Positions 3,475 to 8,730 of a stretch of DNA of 64,000 bases are shown here, in pieces. This DNA is from Secundilactobacillus folii (lineage in GTDB: Bacteria; Bacillota; Bacilli; Lactobacillales; Lactobacillaceae): the NCBI RefSeq assembly GCF_009720675.1, contig NZ_WNJO01000006.1, positions 124,001 through 188,000 of the forward strand, read 5' to 3'. Position 1 is the stretch's first letter; every line of letters starts with the position of its first letter. The notes beneath the pieces are model-generated. The model was not told the DNA's origin. It saw nothing but the letters and a program-made list of their open reading frames with translations, and made no database searches. Position numbers and translations under genes: made by a program.

Positions 3475-4128
3475 ATGAATAATCATTCTGTAAGTAGTGT
3501 TTTAGTTGTTTTAGCAGTCGCATTAGGTTTGAGTGTAACAGCAGTTCCAAGTAACACCAAGGCTAAGATGAGTCATTCAACGGATGCCACCAAGGTCGTT
3601 AAGCGTGATTCTCAACGAGGTAGCGTTTCATCGTTGAACAGTCCCGCTACCGGCTCAGCCAGTGTTACACCAGCGTCAAAGCGGTGGAAGTCCACAACGG
3701 TCACATACAAGATTTCCAGCGGTTCAAGTTATTATACAAACATTTGGAAAAACGCGGTCAAAAAGTGGAATGCCGGTGGTGTGGTTAACTTAGTTCCCAC
3801 GTCTGGTAAACCGGATATCTCGTTATCAACCTGTAATTCGTCGTTGAGTAATTCTGGTACAGTTGGTATTACGTATTCCACATACTACAATGGTTCAAAA
3901 ATGAATAATTTGCAGGTTATGGCCAGTGCTAAATCGTACATTTATCGAAATGTTTCGAAGAAGTTCAAGTATTCCAAGGCGGAAAGAACCAACGTTGCGG
4001 AACATGAATTAGGTCACGCGTTAGGCTTACAGCATAACGTAGGCAAGGCCAGTGTCATGTATTACGCAACTCGAGATCGTTCAGTATCAAAGCCTGATAT
4101 CAAAGGCTTGCAAGAGAGTTACCGTTAA
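3475..4128 (+). CDS. Secreted matrixin-like zinc metalloprotease
   Basis: 217 residues. The N-terminus has a hydrophobic signal (about residues 8-25) ending near an AVPSNTKA region, so the protein should be exported. A Ser/Thr-rich linker follows to about residue 65. The catalytic site is HELGHALGLQH (about residues 178-188), which fits the HExxHxxGxxH zinc motif of matrixins, and a likely Met-turn, SVMYY, follows about 8 residues later. The catalytic domain is small, and no cell-wall anchor is visible, so the enzyme is probably released or loosely bound. AAAGGAG lies upstream of the ATG. The gene is transcribed alone and ends in a strong terminator. Substrate is unknown. Confidence 0.85.
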   Translation: MNNHSVSSVLVVLAVALGLSVTAVPSNTKAKMSHSTDATKVVKRDSQRGSVSSLNSPATGSASVTPASKRWKSTTVTYKISSGSSYYTNIWKNAVKKWNAGGVVNLVPTSGKPDISLSTCNSSLSNSGTVGITYSTYYNGSKMNNLQVMASAKSYIYRNVSKKFKYSKAERTNVAEHELGHALGLQHNVGKASVMYYATRDRSVSKPDIKGLQESYR

Positions 4129-4315: not shown

Positions 4316-6067
4316 CTACATTGCTTTCAGCCACCCATAAACTTCTTTCAGACTTTCGCGAATCACGGTCAGTAGTTCTTCGGCACCAAACGGATTGGTA
4401 TCCCAAGCGGAAACGGTTAGCAAAATACGATCGTCCAGAATGCCGTAGTAGATGCCATAGCCGTCATTACTCGTTGGTGCAAAAGAGAAAGTGTCGATCA
4501 GATCATAAGGGACGCCAGTTGTCGAAAAGAAATCAGTTTCTAACTGTTTTAAGAAGCCAGAATTAAAGAATTCAGCTGCGTCTGGGAAGGCTGCTTCGCC
4601 ACCATTTTGCTGCATCATGTATTTTAGACCCAGTAAGTGACGCTCAACGCCGAACCCCTTTTGCGCGAGGTGCACACGATCGGTGTGTTCTGTTACCGCG
4701 TGGTCAAACAGCTGCTTGACAGCTGCATCGCGACTTCCAGCCGCGAATGCTTCTGCAAAGTCACGTTTACCGACGTTAATGGAGCGGGCATTTTCCGTTC
4801 GGCCCTGATAAAAGGCGCGCATGGAGACTGGTTCGTAGATACTGCGCCAAGCCCCGGTTGTCTTATACTCCGCTAAAGCTAGAGCAGTATGGAAAAAGGC
4901 ATCTGGACTAATACCAAGTGCTTTCAAGTCTGATTTGCCAAAGATCGTCATTGGATTAGAAGCAAACTGGATGCTTCGAGCCGTTTCAGTATTTTGATGT
5001 TGGGCCTCCGCTAACGCTTCTCTTGTGTAGTTATCCAAGCGCCATTTTAGCTGCTGATAATGGGGCTTACCCTTAGCATCCCAAGCATCAGCTGGTTGGC
5101 TTAAATTAGCGACCACGGTTTTCAGCAGGTTCAGTGCAGGCACACCGTCAATATCACTGTGCTCAAATGCGATTCCTAGCCCGCCAGAGGTATCAATCAC
5201 AACTTGAATAGTCTTATCAAAGACCCGCTCATTAGGGCCTAATAACGTCTCTTTGAGGCTAATAGGGGTCTCTTGATCAGCCAAGGTGACCACTAACAGG
5301 CTGTTACTAATGCGGTCCAGATTAACATGGTTATCAGAATCACTAGCTAGATGTAGCCTTAGTTTGGCCGCATTGTCACGTGGTAATCCCGTATAAGCAC
5401 CGACAAAAAAGCTGTCAGTCACTGCATTTGCCATGATCTCCTTAAACGCTTCAGTTAACGAATGCAGTGTTGACACGCGACCGGCATGATCGATCAGGCG
5501 GACTTGGTAAAAAGTCTGGTGATAGATCACAGTGGCTTCAACGTTAGTGACCGTTGCTCGGGTTCGTTGAAGACGGTCGCTGCCACTGTGAGGCTGTCGT
5601 TGAGTCCGGAAGAAATTTTGGTAGTAGCTCATGTCTACTGCTTGTCCAGTTTTGCTCGTTTCGACCGGGACTTCTTCCTTGGCATAAGCCAGGTACTGGT
5701 CAGCAAAGTTCTGCAATAATTTTGCTGCCATGTCGATTTGGTTTAGATCAGGCAGTCGGTCGGGCGAAATCGTTAAACCAAAGTTGGAGGTACTTTGAAT
5801 CGGCTGTCTGTCCGTTAGGTAACCGTGTCGCCAAATGGGTGCTAGCCAACTGGCATTAGTTTCCGTCCAATTTCGTAACAATAACGCTTGTAACTCCTGT
5901 GCATCACTTTGCTGAAACTGTTTAATTTGATCCGCAAACTTGTCCCGCTCCGCCTCACCTAGCAGAGGTGCGGCCCATTCGCTCAACCGCTTTAAGGTTT
6001 CATCGAGTTCAGGTAGTGGGAGTTTAGGCAATTGCGGTAGCAGATCTGTCGTGTATTTTCCCGTCAT
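4316..6067 (-). CDS. Choline/carnitine O-acyltransferase family protein
   Basis: About 583 residues, the length of the eukaryotic carnitine acyltransferase family. Signature positions can be seen. FEHSDIDGVPAL holds the likely catalytic His (the EHxxxDGxP motif). YEPVSMRAFYQGRTENARSIN corresponds to the YESxSxRRFxxGRxxxIRS substrate block. Near the C-terminus, FSFAPTSNDGYGIYYGILDDRILLTVSAW corresponds to the FxPVxxDGYGxxY region. The enzyme would move an acyl group between coenzyme A and carnitine or choline in the cytoplasm. I chose the ATG at 6067 because GAGGGA lies 6-7 bases upstream. It starts one base after the stop of a small membrane peptide and shares an operon with a BCCT transporter that would supply the acceptor. 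Such enzymes are uncommon in bacteria. Confidence 0.85.
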   Translation of the reverse strand: MTGKYTTDLLPQLPKLPLPELDETLKRLSEWAAPLLGEAERDKFADQIKQFQQSDAQELQALLLRNWTETNASWLAPIWRHGYLTDRQPIQSTSNFGLTISPDRLPDLNQIDMAAKLLQNFADQYLAYAKEEVPVETSKTGQAVDMSYYQNFFRTQRQPHSGSDRLQRTRATVTNVEATVIYHQTFYQVRLIDHAGRVSTLHSLTEAFKEIMANAVTDSFFVGAYTGLPRDNAAKLRLHLASDSDNHVNLDRISNSLLVVTLADQETPISLKETLLGPNERVFDKTIQVVIDTSGGLGIAFEHSDIDGVPALNLLKTVVANLSQPADAWDAKGKPHYQQLKWRLDNYTREALAEAQHQNTETARSIQFASNPMTIFGKSDLKALGISPDAFFHTALALAEYKTTGAWRSIYEPVSMRAFYQGRTENARSINVGKRDFAEAFAAGSRDAAVKQLFDHAVTEHTDRVHLAQKGFGVERHLLGLKYMMQQNGGEAAFPDAAEFFNSGFLKQLETDFFSTTGVPYDLIDTFSFAPTSNDGYGIYYGILDDRILLTVSAWDTNPFGAEELLTVIRESLKEVYGWLKAM

Positions 6068-6068
6068 C

Positions 6069-6254
6069 TTAATCCCTCTTTTCGTCAAAAGCTAACCTAA
6101 TGATCCAAATAATGACTGCAATAAATAACATGATAATAACCGAGACTAACAGGTTGTGTCCGTAGGAATGCAGGAGCAGCTGCTTGTCCCACGGAAAGTT
6201 GGTCTTTGGCACGTACTTGGAAGCTAACTGCATCATTGCAAGTACTAATGGCAT
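6069..6254 (-). CDS. Small membrane protein of the BCCT-acyltransferase operon
   Basis: 61 residues. Residues 33-52 (NLLVSVIIMLFIAVIIWIIRL) form a single membrane helix, followed by a short charged tail ending in DEKRD. The first 30 residues are amphipathic and contain Trp and Pro. GAGGAGG stands 6-7 bases upstream of the ATG at 6254, and the gene fits tightly between the BCCT transporter (17-bp gap) and the acyltransferase (1-bp gap), so it is very likely translated. I do not recognise a family. Its position suggests a helper of the transporter or of the acyltransferase at the membrane, which is inference. Confidence 0.7.
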   Translation of the reverse strand: MPLVLAMMQLASKYVPKTNFPWDKQLLLHSYGHNLLVSVIIMLFIAVIIWIIRLAFDEKRD

Positions 6255-6271
6255 GAAAATTCCTCCTCACG

Positions 6272-7807
6272 TTATTCCTTAGTGATGTCGCCACGTTTAT
6301 AATCAGCTTGCATCTGGCGGTACATTCCAGAAATTGATAGGAAAACAAAGAACATGAACGGAATGCCGATGATGACACCAACTGCTTTGATGCCGTCCAA
6401 GGTACCGGTGACAATGTTGGCGAAGGCAATCATGGTGGTGATGATTGACCACAGAATCGTTCGGTTACGCGGGGCGTTTTCCGGCCCGTTACTGGTCATA
6501 ATACTGATCGAGATCATCGAACTGGTTGTTGCGGTGGCGAGGAAAATGACCACGAGGAACAAGAAGACGATTCCAGTAATCTGAAAGCCCGGCAGTTCTT
6601 GCAGCACCATAATGAAGGACAGGTAGACGTTTTCGGGATTATTGGCAATGAAGTGAATGATCTTGCCATCACCGAAGAATGCGTTCCAAAAACCGTTACC
6701 GGCAAAGACACTAAACCAGATGATCAGGAAAAAGGTTGGTACAAGGATCGACATGAACACAATTTGACGGATAGTGCGTCCCTTTGAGATTCGGGCGATG
6801 AAGATACCTAGAAACGGTGTCCAGGAGATCCACCAGATCATGATCGTGTTTGGCCAAGAGTCAAACCACGCCTGATCTTGGAACGGAAAGGTCGTGAAGC
6901 CGACGGGAATAACGTCGAGAAATGCATGACGGATGTTTTCGGTTACTAACCGCATAATCATTGGGGCGTCAGAAAGTGCAAAGACAAAGATCATCAGCAC
7001 AACGGCAACAATCGTATTGATTTCTCCCAGTCGGCCCATACCCTTTTGAATGGGTAGAATGGCTGCAATCGTGTAAATAATGAACATGATCAAGAGCAGG
7101 ACCAAAGAATCTGACAAGCGACTGAACTTTTGACCGGTAATGGCGGTGTAGGCGTTTTGCATTTGGAAGATACCGATGGCAATGTGGGCTGCAATGGTCA
7201 GCGATGCTGCACCCGCCGCGATGATACTGGTGACAGTTGCAACGCTAGACCCCCATTTCTTATCTGAAAAGCCCTTTTCGATGGGCGTTCCAGGCAAAAA
7301 CTTTGCGCCCTTGTAATAGGCAAAGTAGCCAATAACCAGGCCGGCAATCGTATAGATGGACCAAGCTGGTAACCCCCAGATGAACATACTGTATTTGAAC
7401 CCATTCTCCGCCGCTAACGCCGGGTTAGTCCCGGCTGCAGCAATGCCTTGCGGGGACTGTAAATAGTGCACCATTGGTTCAGCGACCCCAAAATTAACGA
7501 TGCCGATGCCGATCCCGGCCGTAAACAGGGTACCGATCCAAGCAAACGTACTAAGTTCCGGCTTATCTTCTGGCTTACCCAGCTTGACTTTGCCAAATTT
7601 TCCTAACGCCAGATACAGGCAGATGAACAGTAAGATAATGGGCATTGGCATGGTAAACCAGCTAAAAGTCTGGTTATAAAGACCTAACCAGCTCCAAAGA
7701 GTGGCGGTCATTGACTTTGGTTCCACCACGGCCCAAATGGAAAAGATCCCGGTAAAGATGATCGATCCCCAAAAGACGGTGGCTCCTTTCCCTAAAAGAG
7801 TCTTCAC
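6272..7807 (-). CDS. BCCT family betaine/carnitine/choline transporter
   Basis: 511 residues with about 12 hydrophobic segments. The BCCT hallmark is present: GIGIVNFGVAEPMVHY near residue 100-115, and WWISWTPFLGIFIARISKGRTIR near residues 325-350 with its Trp cluster. BCCT carriers take up quaternary ammonium compounds such as carnitine, choline or glycine betaine, driven by sodium or protons. The downstream acyltransferase points to carnitine or choline as the substrate. The first gene of a three-gene operon; a cre-like site lies about 110 bp upstream, which suggests catabolite control. The long charged C-terminal osmosensor tail of BetP is absent, which fits a nutrient rather than osmotic role. 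Confidence 0.9.
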   Translation of the reverse strand: MKTLLGKGATVFWGSIIFTGIFSIWAVVEPKSMTATLWSWLGLYNQTFSWFTMPMPIILLFICLYLALGKFGKVKLGKPEDKPELSTFAWIGTLFTAGIGIGIVNFGVAEPMVHYLQSPQGIAAAGTNPALAAENGFKYSMFIWGLPAWSIYTIAGLVIGYFAYYKGAKFLPGTPIEKGFSDKKWGSSVATVTSIIAAGAASLTIAAHIAIGIFQMQNAYTAITGQKFSRLSDSLVLLLIMFIIYTIAAILPIQKGMGRLGEINTIVAVVLMIFVFALSDAPMIMRLVTENIRHAFLDVIPVGFTTFPFQDQAWFDSWPNTIMIWWISWTPFLGIFIARISKGRTIRQIVFMSILVPTFFLIIWFSVFAGNGFWNAFFGDGKIIHFIANNPENVYLSFIMVLQELPGFQITGIVFLFLVVIFLATATTSSMISISIMTSNGPENAPRNRTILWSIITTMIAFANIVTGTLDGIKAVGVIIGIPFMFFVFLSISGMYRQMQADYKRGDITKE

Positions 7808-7918: not shown

Positions 7919-7932
7919 TAAAAGCGCTTTCA
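7919..7932 (-). promoter_or_regulatory. cre-like CcpA site upstream of the BCCT operon
   Basis: TAAAAGCGCTTTCA on the plus strand (TGAAAGCGCTTTTA on the minus strand) fits the CcpA palindrome well. It lies between the divergent BCCT operon and the gene at 8080. Confidence 0.6.
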
Positions 7933-8079
7933 TCGAATCGTATTATCGCATATTAGGCTTTCATCGTCATGGATTATTGCTTGAGGTGTTCCAGGCCAAC
8001 AAAAGCCACAGATTATCGTTGAGATTGCTGAGCATCGAGCACAGGGGCGTGTTATTCTGTTATTAAGGAAGTGGTATGA

Positions 8080-8730
8080 ATGGGACTCACAACGGCAAAA
8101 AAATTTCTACTCTTAACGGAACGTATTGACCGAAAACCGGCACTTCGAACCCGCTTTACCAGTCAATCCTACTTTGTATTGGCTACGATTTTAGACTTGA
8201 TCGATACTGGTACATTGGCGGTAGAGCACGACGAATTGCAGATGAAGTCTGACCAACCTAGTTGGCCGTATCTCTCGAATCTATTTAAACAACTCGGACA
8301 GGCTGTGAAAGCTGACGCTCATTTAAAGAACGCCTTACAGCCCATTACCAGTTGGGACATTGCCAATCAAATCTATGATGGGATTGGCACTGAACTGCTG
8401 TCAGATGGGCAAGTGGAGCGGGTGCCATTTCAAAATAACTTGAAACAGCATATTATTTACGTGCCAACGGAAACTGCCCGAGAGTCTACCAAAAACCAAC
8501 TGGTTGCGGGATTGACGGCTGATGAGCCAACGCCAACTGCGATGAACTTGTTAGCGATTTTCCAAGCTTCGCAGGCTTTACAATGGGTTATTACAGATCA
8601 GCAACAGCGACAATTTATTTTGCAGGAATTGGCGGGGAATAATCACTATTTAAGCCGTAATGATTTCGTGCAAAGTGCTGCAGATGTCATTACTCAAAAG
8701 CGTTTCTGGCTGGATTCTTGGCTAAGCTAG
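8080..8730 (+). CDS. GPP34-like protein (tentative), unknown function
   Basis: 216 residues, soluble, no signal peptide. The pattern resembles the GPP34/GOLPH3 fold: an LTTAKKFLLLTE start, an alternation of helices with TILDLIDTGTLAVEHDELQ, a tail HIIYVPTETARESTKNQLVAGL, then PTPTAMNLLAIFQASQALQWV. In eukaryotes GPP34 binds phosphatidylinositol-4-phosphate; bacterial members have no settled role. The assignment rests on overall pattern, not on a decisive motif. AAGGAAGTG precedes the ATG. The gene is divergent from the BCCT operon, sharing about 270 bp of upstream DNA that contains a cre-like site. It is followed by about 2 kb without a normal gene. Confidence 0.4.
   Translation: MGLTTAKKFLLLTERIDRKPALRTRFTSQSYFVLATILDLIDTGTLAVEHDELQMKSDQPSWPYLSNLFKQLGQAVKADAHLKNALQPITSWDIANQIYDGIGTELLSDGQVERVPFQNNLKQHIIYVPTETARESTKNQLVAGLTADEPTPTAMNLLAIFQASQALQWVITDQQQRQFILQELAGNNHYLSRNDFVQSAADVITQKRFWLDSWLS

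Follow-up and report, generated by a model that had tools for sequence, protein, structure and literature searches.

This analysis concerns three adjacent genes of Secundilactobacillus folii that encode a carrier, a small peptide, and an acyltransferase. They lie in a stretch of 64,000 nucleotides, in the following called the window (contig NZ_WNJO01000006.1, positions 124,001 to 188,000), of a genome of 2.68 Mb that contains a single copy of the Carn_acyltransf family. The genes are:

7807..6272, minus strand: carrier of the BCCT family, GTG start at 7807
6254..6069, minus strand: small membrane peptide of 61 amino acids, with one hydrophobic stretch as read from the sequence
6067..4316, minus strand: predicted carnitine short-chain acyltransferase (Carn_acyltransf; CAT in the following), 583 amino acids, ATG start at 6067

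The intergenic gaps are 17 bases between the BCCT and the peptide genes and one base between the peptide and the CAT genes. An earlier note on this DNA had described the order BCCT, peptide, full-length CAT, and it was borne out by the reading frames of the window and by Pfam profile matches, as was the spacing of one base. The trio was found in six of 397 Lactobacillaceae genomes, namely the host, S. similis, and Lentilactobacillus (Le.) raoultii, Le. parafarraginis, Le. fungorum, and Le. parakefiri. The operon-type subfamily of BCCT carriers (E <=1e-150) is present in exactly these six of the 397 genomes. The same order in six species belonging to two genera shows that the arrangement is not due to chance.

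The CAT matched PF00755 with an E-value of 4.5e-117 and 392 bits (cut-off 22.3) over profile positions 1-561 of 574, and the catalytic His motif EHSDIDG, already pointed out in the earlier note, is present. A structure model, built with 10 relatives in the alignment, reached a pLDDT of 87.5 and a pTM of 0.87. In a Foldseek comparison with the PDB, ranks 1-28 were all chains of CPT2, COT, carnitine acetyltransferase (CrAT), or choline acetyltransferase (ChAT), with a TM to the query of 0.87-0.92, while ranks 29-50 were mostly condensation-type domains of nonribosomal peptide synthetases, with a TM of <=0.40. The identity of the enzyme, for which the earlier note had proposed structure prediction as a test, withstood it: the predicted fold is the two-domain fold of the CrAT/CPT2/ChAT type and includes the catalytic His.

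Site residues were assigned by alignment to mouse CrAT, and CrAT numbering is used throughout. The corresponding residues in the numbering of the window CAT, from this alignment, are:

6067..4316, minus strand: H303 (catalytic), K378 and K382 (CoA), D389, Y411 (CrAT 452)
same gene: T424 (CrAT 465), R476 (CrAT 518), S515-T516-T517, F527 (CrAT 564)

We take Y452, T465, and R518 to be the residues of CrAT that contact the carboxylate of carnitine, and Val459 and Asn514 of rat ChAT to be the equivalents of T465 and R518. The whole carnitine set is present in the window CAT, and the ChAT pattern, without Thr at 465 and without Arg at 518, was not found. All of the CoA-binding residues that are given for CrAT in an excerpt of PMC11852590, K419, K423, D430, and E453, are present as well. 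The window CAT and the five other operon CATs retain H343, K419, K423, D430, Y452, E453, R464, T465, and R518, and the window CAT also retains S552-T553. At position 564, Phe is present in the window CAT and in S. similis and Leu in three Lentilactobacillus species; the position is not readable in Le. parakefiri. Met564 of CrAT presumably limits the length of the acyl chain, and the titles of PDB entries among the structural matches include the CrAT mutants M564G and S554A/M564G, the latter with hexanoylcarnitine. Based on the Phe at this position, short chains are predicted. Judged by its residues, the window CAT reads as a short-chain carnitine acyltransferase, and we infer carnitine as the acceptor.

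The carrier matched PF02028 over its full length (E 2.7e-109) and has the complete aromatic box of BetP (W189/W194/Y197/W374/W377); for none of the NCBIfam models of BCCT carriers that it matched does its score reach the cut-off. It contains the motif GIGIG, a betaine-type GxGxG. According to excerpts of PMC6562126 and PMC11708041, choline carriers have Ala or Asp at the last position of this motif, where the operon BCCT has Gly, and the latter source, as excerpted, describes GxGxG as typical of glycine betaine carriers. The Na+ sites of BetP, listed as T246/T250/F380 and A147/M150/F464/T467/S468 in an excerpt of PMC6562126, are not intact: F380, F464, and T467 are kept, and T246, T250, S468, A147, and M150 are changed. 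In all four full-length operon BCCTs T246/T250/S468 are replaced by A/I/A (T in Le. parakefiri), which makes a BetP-like Na+ symport doubtful.

The peptide is similar in all six operons, with 19 invariant columns and a conserved V-P-x-x-x-F-P-x-D-K ahead of the hydrophobic stretch. No family was found for it in Pfam, NCBIfam, or PHROGs at E 0.001. A search of 301 genomes matched nine, and the three strong matches (E <1e-32) all belong to operons; the remaining three Lentilactobacillus operon genomes are absent among the matches, presumably because they were not drawn into this sample. Other homes of the peptide were rejected: of the six weak matches (E 5.6e-5 to 6.9e-4), four contain internal stops and two lie inside frames of 534 and 538 codons, one of which we take to be NRAMP-like. 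The peptide may be a subunit of the carrier or an anchor of the enzyme.

The CAT or a part of it was also found in nine other Secundilactobacillus genomes without the operon partners (orphan CATs). No BCCT and no peptide gene was found in the stretches around the nine loci. At the six loci measured, only 151-181 bases separate the CAT gene from the relative of the window gene at 8080-8730, which indicates a clean absence of the carrier and peptide genes. All nine genomes had one BCCT match each. The host genome encodes a second BCCT of the genus-wide type, and genus-wide BCCTs (n=4, from two orphan-CAT genomes, genome G057, and the host genome) share 20-27% identity with the operon carriers. 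Of the orphan CATs, six are open over their full length, one is interrupted by a TGA, another is split into two pieces, and the last is a C-terminal fragment, so that decay is visible in three of the nine. Among the eight readable orphans, K419 and Y452 are changed in all and R518 in seven. The seven tabulated orphans have changes at K419 (7), Y452 (7), K423 (6), R518 (6), T465 (3), and H343 (1). In the eighth orphan (G162), the readable piece shows Arg at 343, Ser at both 419 and 452, and His at 518, with K423 retained; of the ninth, only a fragment is left, in which R518 and F566 are present. The loss of residues in species lacking the carrier and the peptide ties the CAT to its transporter.

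Of 85 columns that are invariant in 21 operon and stand-alone CATs, 19 are kept by at most two of seven orphans and 49 by at least six. The enrichment of losses at a fixed list of 12 site residues over these 85 columns is marginal (permutation p 0.048), because D430, R464, and T553 are kept in all seven orphans and H343 and E453 in six. Pairs of orphan CATs have a pN of 0.20-0.36 versus a pS of 0.73-0.85. Synonymous sites are saturated, and a dN/dS ratio was obtained for only three of 78 CAT pairs (two of 21 orphan pairs, with 0.096 and 0.105, and one operon pair, with 0.066); therefore, the case for purifying selection on the orphans is built on pN versus pS and on the full-length frames. In a neutral simulation (500 runs, no indels) zero open frames survived at 10% divergence. 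The orphan CATs, including those of loci L023-L030, look like a maintained lineage of pseudoenzymes.

The CAT family is present in 15 of 397 Lactobacillaceae genomes and in two of 40 genera, Secundilactobacillus (11/15 genomes) and Lentilactobacillus (4/24), in 22 of 395 Lactobacillales genomes (5/80 genera), and in four of 398 genomes of the phylum sample, including the host; it is absent from the 14 control genomes. Carriage on plasmids or phages was also considered, and no such record was found at E 1e-5. The earlier statement that the enzyme is rare in bacteria is therefore only partly true: the gene is uncommon, yet it recurs as an accessory gene among Lactobacillales. Sixteen of the 22 Lactobacillales genomes belong to one genus (g321), in which the CAT stands alone. 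In most of the stand-alone loci (L097-L113, genera g321 and g318), and in most of those of g321, the CAT lies near genes that we take, by their N-termini, to be rel- and dtd-like.

In the tree, 30 Lactobacillales CAT rows group in a single clade (100/100) that excludes mouse CrAT and three rows of other classes, and two further, very divergent Lactobacillales rows (L114, L115) lie outside it. A recent transfer from a eukaryote is not supported by this clustering, mouse CrAT being the single eukaryotic row in the tree. Within the clade, the stand-alone CATs form a sister clade of 17 rows. Seven orphan CATs form one clade (97/92), which the window CAT adjoins (93/91), followed by S. similis and then Lentilactobacillus. 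A single loss of carrier and peptide is therefore the simplest history.

Two elements were found upstream of the carrier gene:

7942..7970, minus strand: promoter-like site ATGACG-17-GATAAT, its second hexamer preceded by TG (identified by match to the consensus only)
7919..7932: cre-like near-palindrome TGAAAGCGCTTTTA (minus-strand letters), just downstream of the second hexamer

Promoter-like sites are about as frequent in the region as in shuffled sequences (6 versus 5.2). Cre-like matches with at most one mismatch amount to six strand-hits at three places of the window, compared to a shuffle mean of 0.99, and two of 100 shuffles reached six. Cre-like boxes with one or two mismatches are present in four of the six operons, where they lie at -50 to -125 relative to the start codon; a box common to every operon was thus ruled out. 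The boxes point to a putative catabolite repression of the operon, with CcpA as a presumed regulator.

Taken together, the three genes probably constitute an operon that handles carnitine and its esters. The BCCT would import carnitine, short acylcarnitines, or both, and the small peptide may be its partner in the membrane; the cytosolic CAT would reversibly move acetyl or short acyl groups between CoA and carnitine. The carnitine acyltransferase reaction is near equilibrium, and therefore its net direction depends on supply. The cre-like box at the promoter makes us lean weakly to scavenging of acylcarnitines rather than removal of acetyl groups: during a shortage of preferred sugars, acetyl-CoA would be gained from acylcarnitines and carnitine would be kept as an osmolyte. 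Acetyl-CoA could yield ethanol and regenerate NAD+, or yield ATP via acetyl-P. The earlier note had proposed that carnitine or choline is taken up and acylated; carnitine is supported by the family of the enzyme, by its predicted fold and site residues, and by the coupled loss seen in the sister species, whereas the CrAT-type Thr465 and Arg518 and the Gly of the BCCT speak against choline. The roles it suggested as acetyl buffer or osmolyte are possible, but nothing in the analysis speaks for a signal to a host.

Several observations weigh against this interpretation. Three species, S. similis, Le. fungorum, and Le. parakefiri, do not have the operon in intact form. The CAT and the two BCCTs of S. 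similis are split, which may be an assembly error, and that genome is listed with 7% contamination. The 16 full-length stand-alone CATs of Lactobacillales retain all listed site residues and have no BCCT in the examined stretches (that of locus L097 starts near a contig end), and relatives of the operon BCCT were not found in 20 stand-alone-CAT Lactobacillales genomes. Therefore, a pairing of CAT and BCCT is not needed across the wider family. Among the orphans, the replacement of K419 by Arg in S. odoratitofui is a mild change, and H343 is retained in six of the eight readable CATs. The window CAT departs from mouse CrAT at E347 (D), S454 (P), and S554 (T), the best PDB sequence matches of the operon BCCT are choline and trimethylamine carriers, and the operons of S. 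similis and Le. parafarraginis have no upstream cre-like box within three mismatches.

These matches to choline carriers would fit an operon that makes acetylcholine, with a choline acetyltransferase and a choline carrier. ChAT structures fit the CAT model about equally to CrAT (TM to the query 0.88-0.91), and the making of acetylcholine by a strain of Lactobacillus plantarum was reported in 1947. A review also cites L. plantarum as a producer of acetylcholine (PMC7904897, excerpt). However, the carnitine-type Thr and Arg of the CAT, the Gly of the BCCT, and the restriction of the CAT family to two genera of Lactobacillaceae make acetylcholine synthesis very improbable.

The other rivals share the identity of the CAT with the favored reading, and the respective odds therefore overlap. 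The BCCT could be an exchanger of carnitine and acylcarnitine in a bacterial carnitine shuttle for the export of overflow acetyl-CoA. The replaced Na+-site residues are in agreement with this, heterofermenters make much acetyl-P, and the host genome contains two phosphoketolase-type genes, a family that was also matched in control genomes, e.g., Lactococcus lactis. We presume R262 to be the Na+-site Arg of CaiT. In the operon BCCT, the residue aligned with it (placed via a helix table in an excerpt of PMC3578728) is Asn, which BetP and TmaT share, CaiT is among the weakest matches of the carrier, and the cre-like box suggests repression and not induction by sugar excess; acetyl export is thus unlikely. 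That the operon serves osmoprotection only, with import of carnitine or betaine by the BCCT and the CAT as an accessory that frees carnitine from esters, would accord with the GxGxG motif and with osmolyte uptake as the best-known function of BCCT carriers, but it is quite unlikely given the second, genus-wide BCCT, the lack of a long charged C-terminal tail in the operon BCCT, and a control element that is cre-like. A more elaborate, self-contained shuttle is a long shot: here the BCCT would exchange carnitine esters without BetP-like use of Na+, the peptide, with its one helix, would tether the CAT to the carrier, the CAT would load acetyl groups onto CoA or unload them, and in the sister clade the loss of carrier and peptide would have made the CAT a selected pseudoenzyme whose new role is non-catalytic.

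The neighborhood of the operon was also inspected. A gene for a secreted-looking M10/matrixin-like zinc protease (PF00413) lies at 3475-4128 on the plus strand, and several adjoining copies are present at relatives' loci (L030 has five plus a truncated one, L028 has three, and another four loci have two each). The gene at 8080-8730 on the plus strand is divergently oriented to the operon and encodes a protein of 216 amino acids without a family match in Pfam or NCBIfam; its relatives in eight related loci are 47-53% identical. Both neighbors are found beside the CAT in seven of the nine orphan loci.

To our knowledge, little function has been described for bacterial members of the carnitine acyltransferase family, and none of the open-licence papers listed for this subject describes a bacterial CAT-BCCT operon. 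The earlier remark that lactobacilli contain acetylcarnitine was not confirmed by these papers; the nearest finds were titles in reference lists, from Kets and co-workers, that concern carnitine in L. plantarum. Here, partner genes and a natural loss in sister species point to the substrate of a CAT. If this holds true, there are lactobacilli that exchange acyl groups with carnitine, a point of relevance for the acylcarnitines of fermented food and silage. An enzyme that has lost key site residues while its frame has stayed open, as in the sister clade, makes the retention of pseudoenzymes testable.

Among known systems, animal CrAT (PF00755; PDB 1ndb, 1nm8) shares with the window CAT the fold, the catalytic His, the CoA lysines, D430/E453, Y452, R464, T465, R518, and a bulky residue at 564. 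It differs in sequence (24-25% identity in Foldseek alignments), in M564, which is F in the window CAT, and in the operon with a carrier in which the window CAT sits. The stand-alone CATs of Lactobacillales (g321 of family f143; g318) are 34-36% identical to the window CAT and differ by having no BCCT or peptide in the examined stretches, and the orphan CATs of Secundilactobacillus, at 53-60% identity, have neither adjoining. The carriers BetP, TmaT, and BetT share the aromatic box with the operon BCCT, and BetP and TmaT also share GxGxG, while the identity of the window carrier is 26% to BetP and 25% to TmaT.

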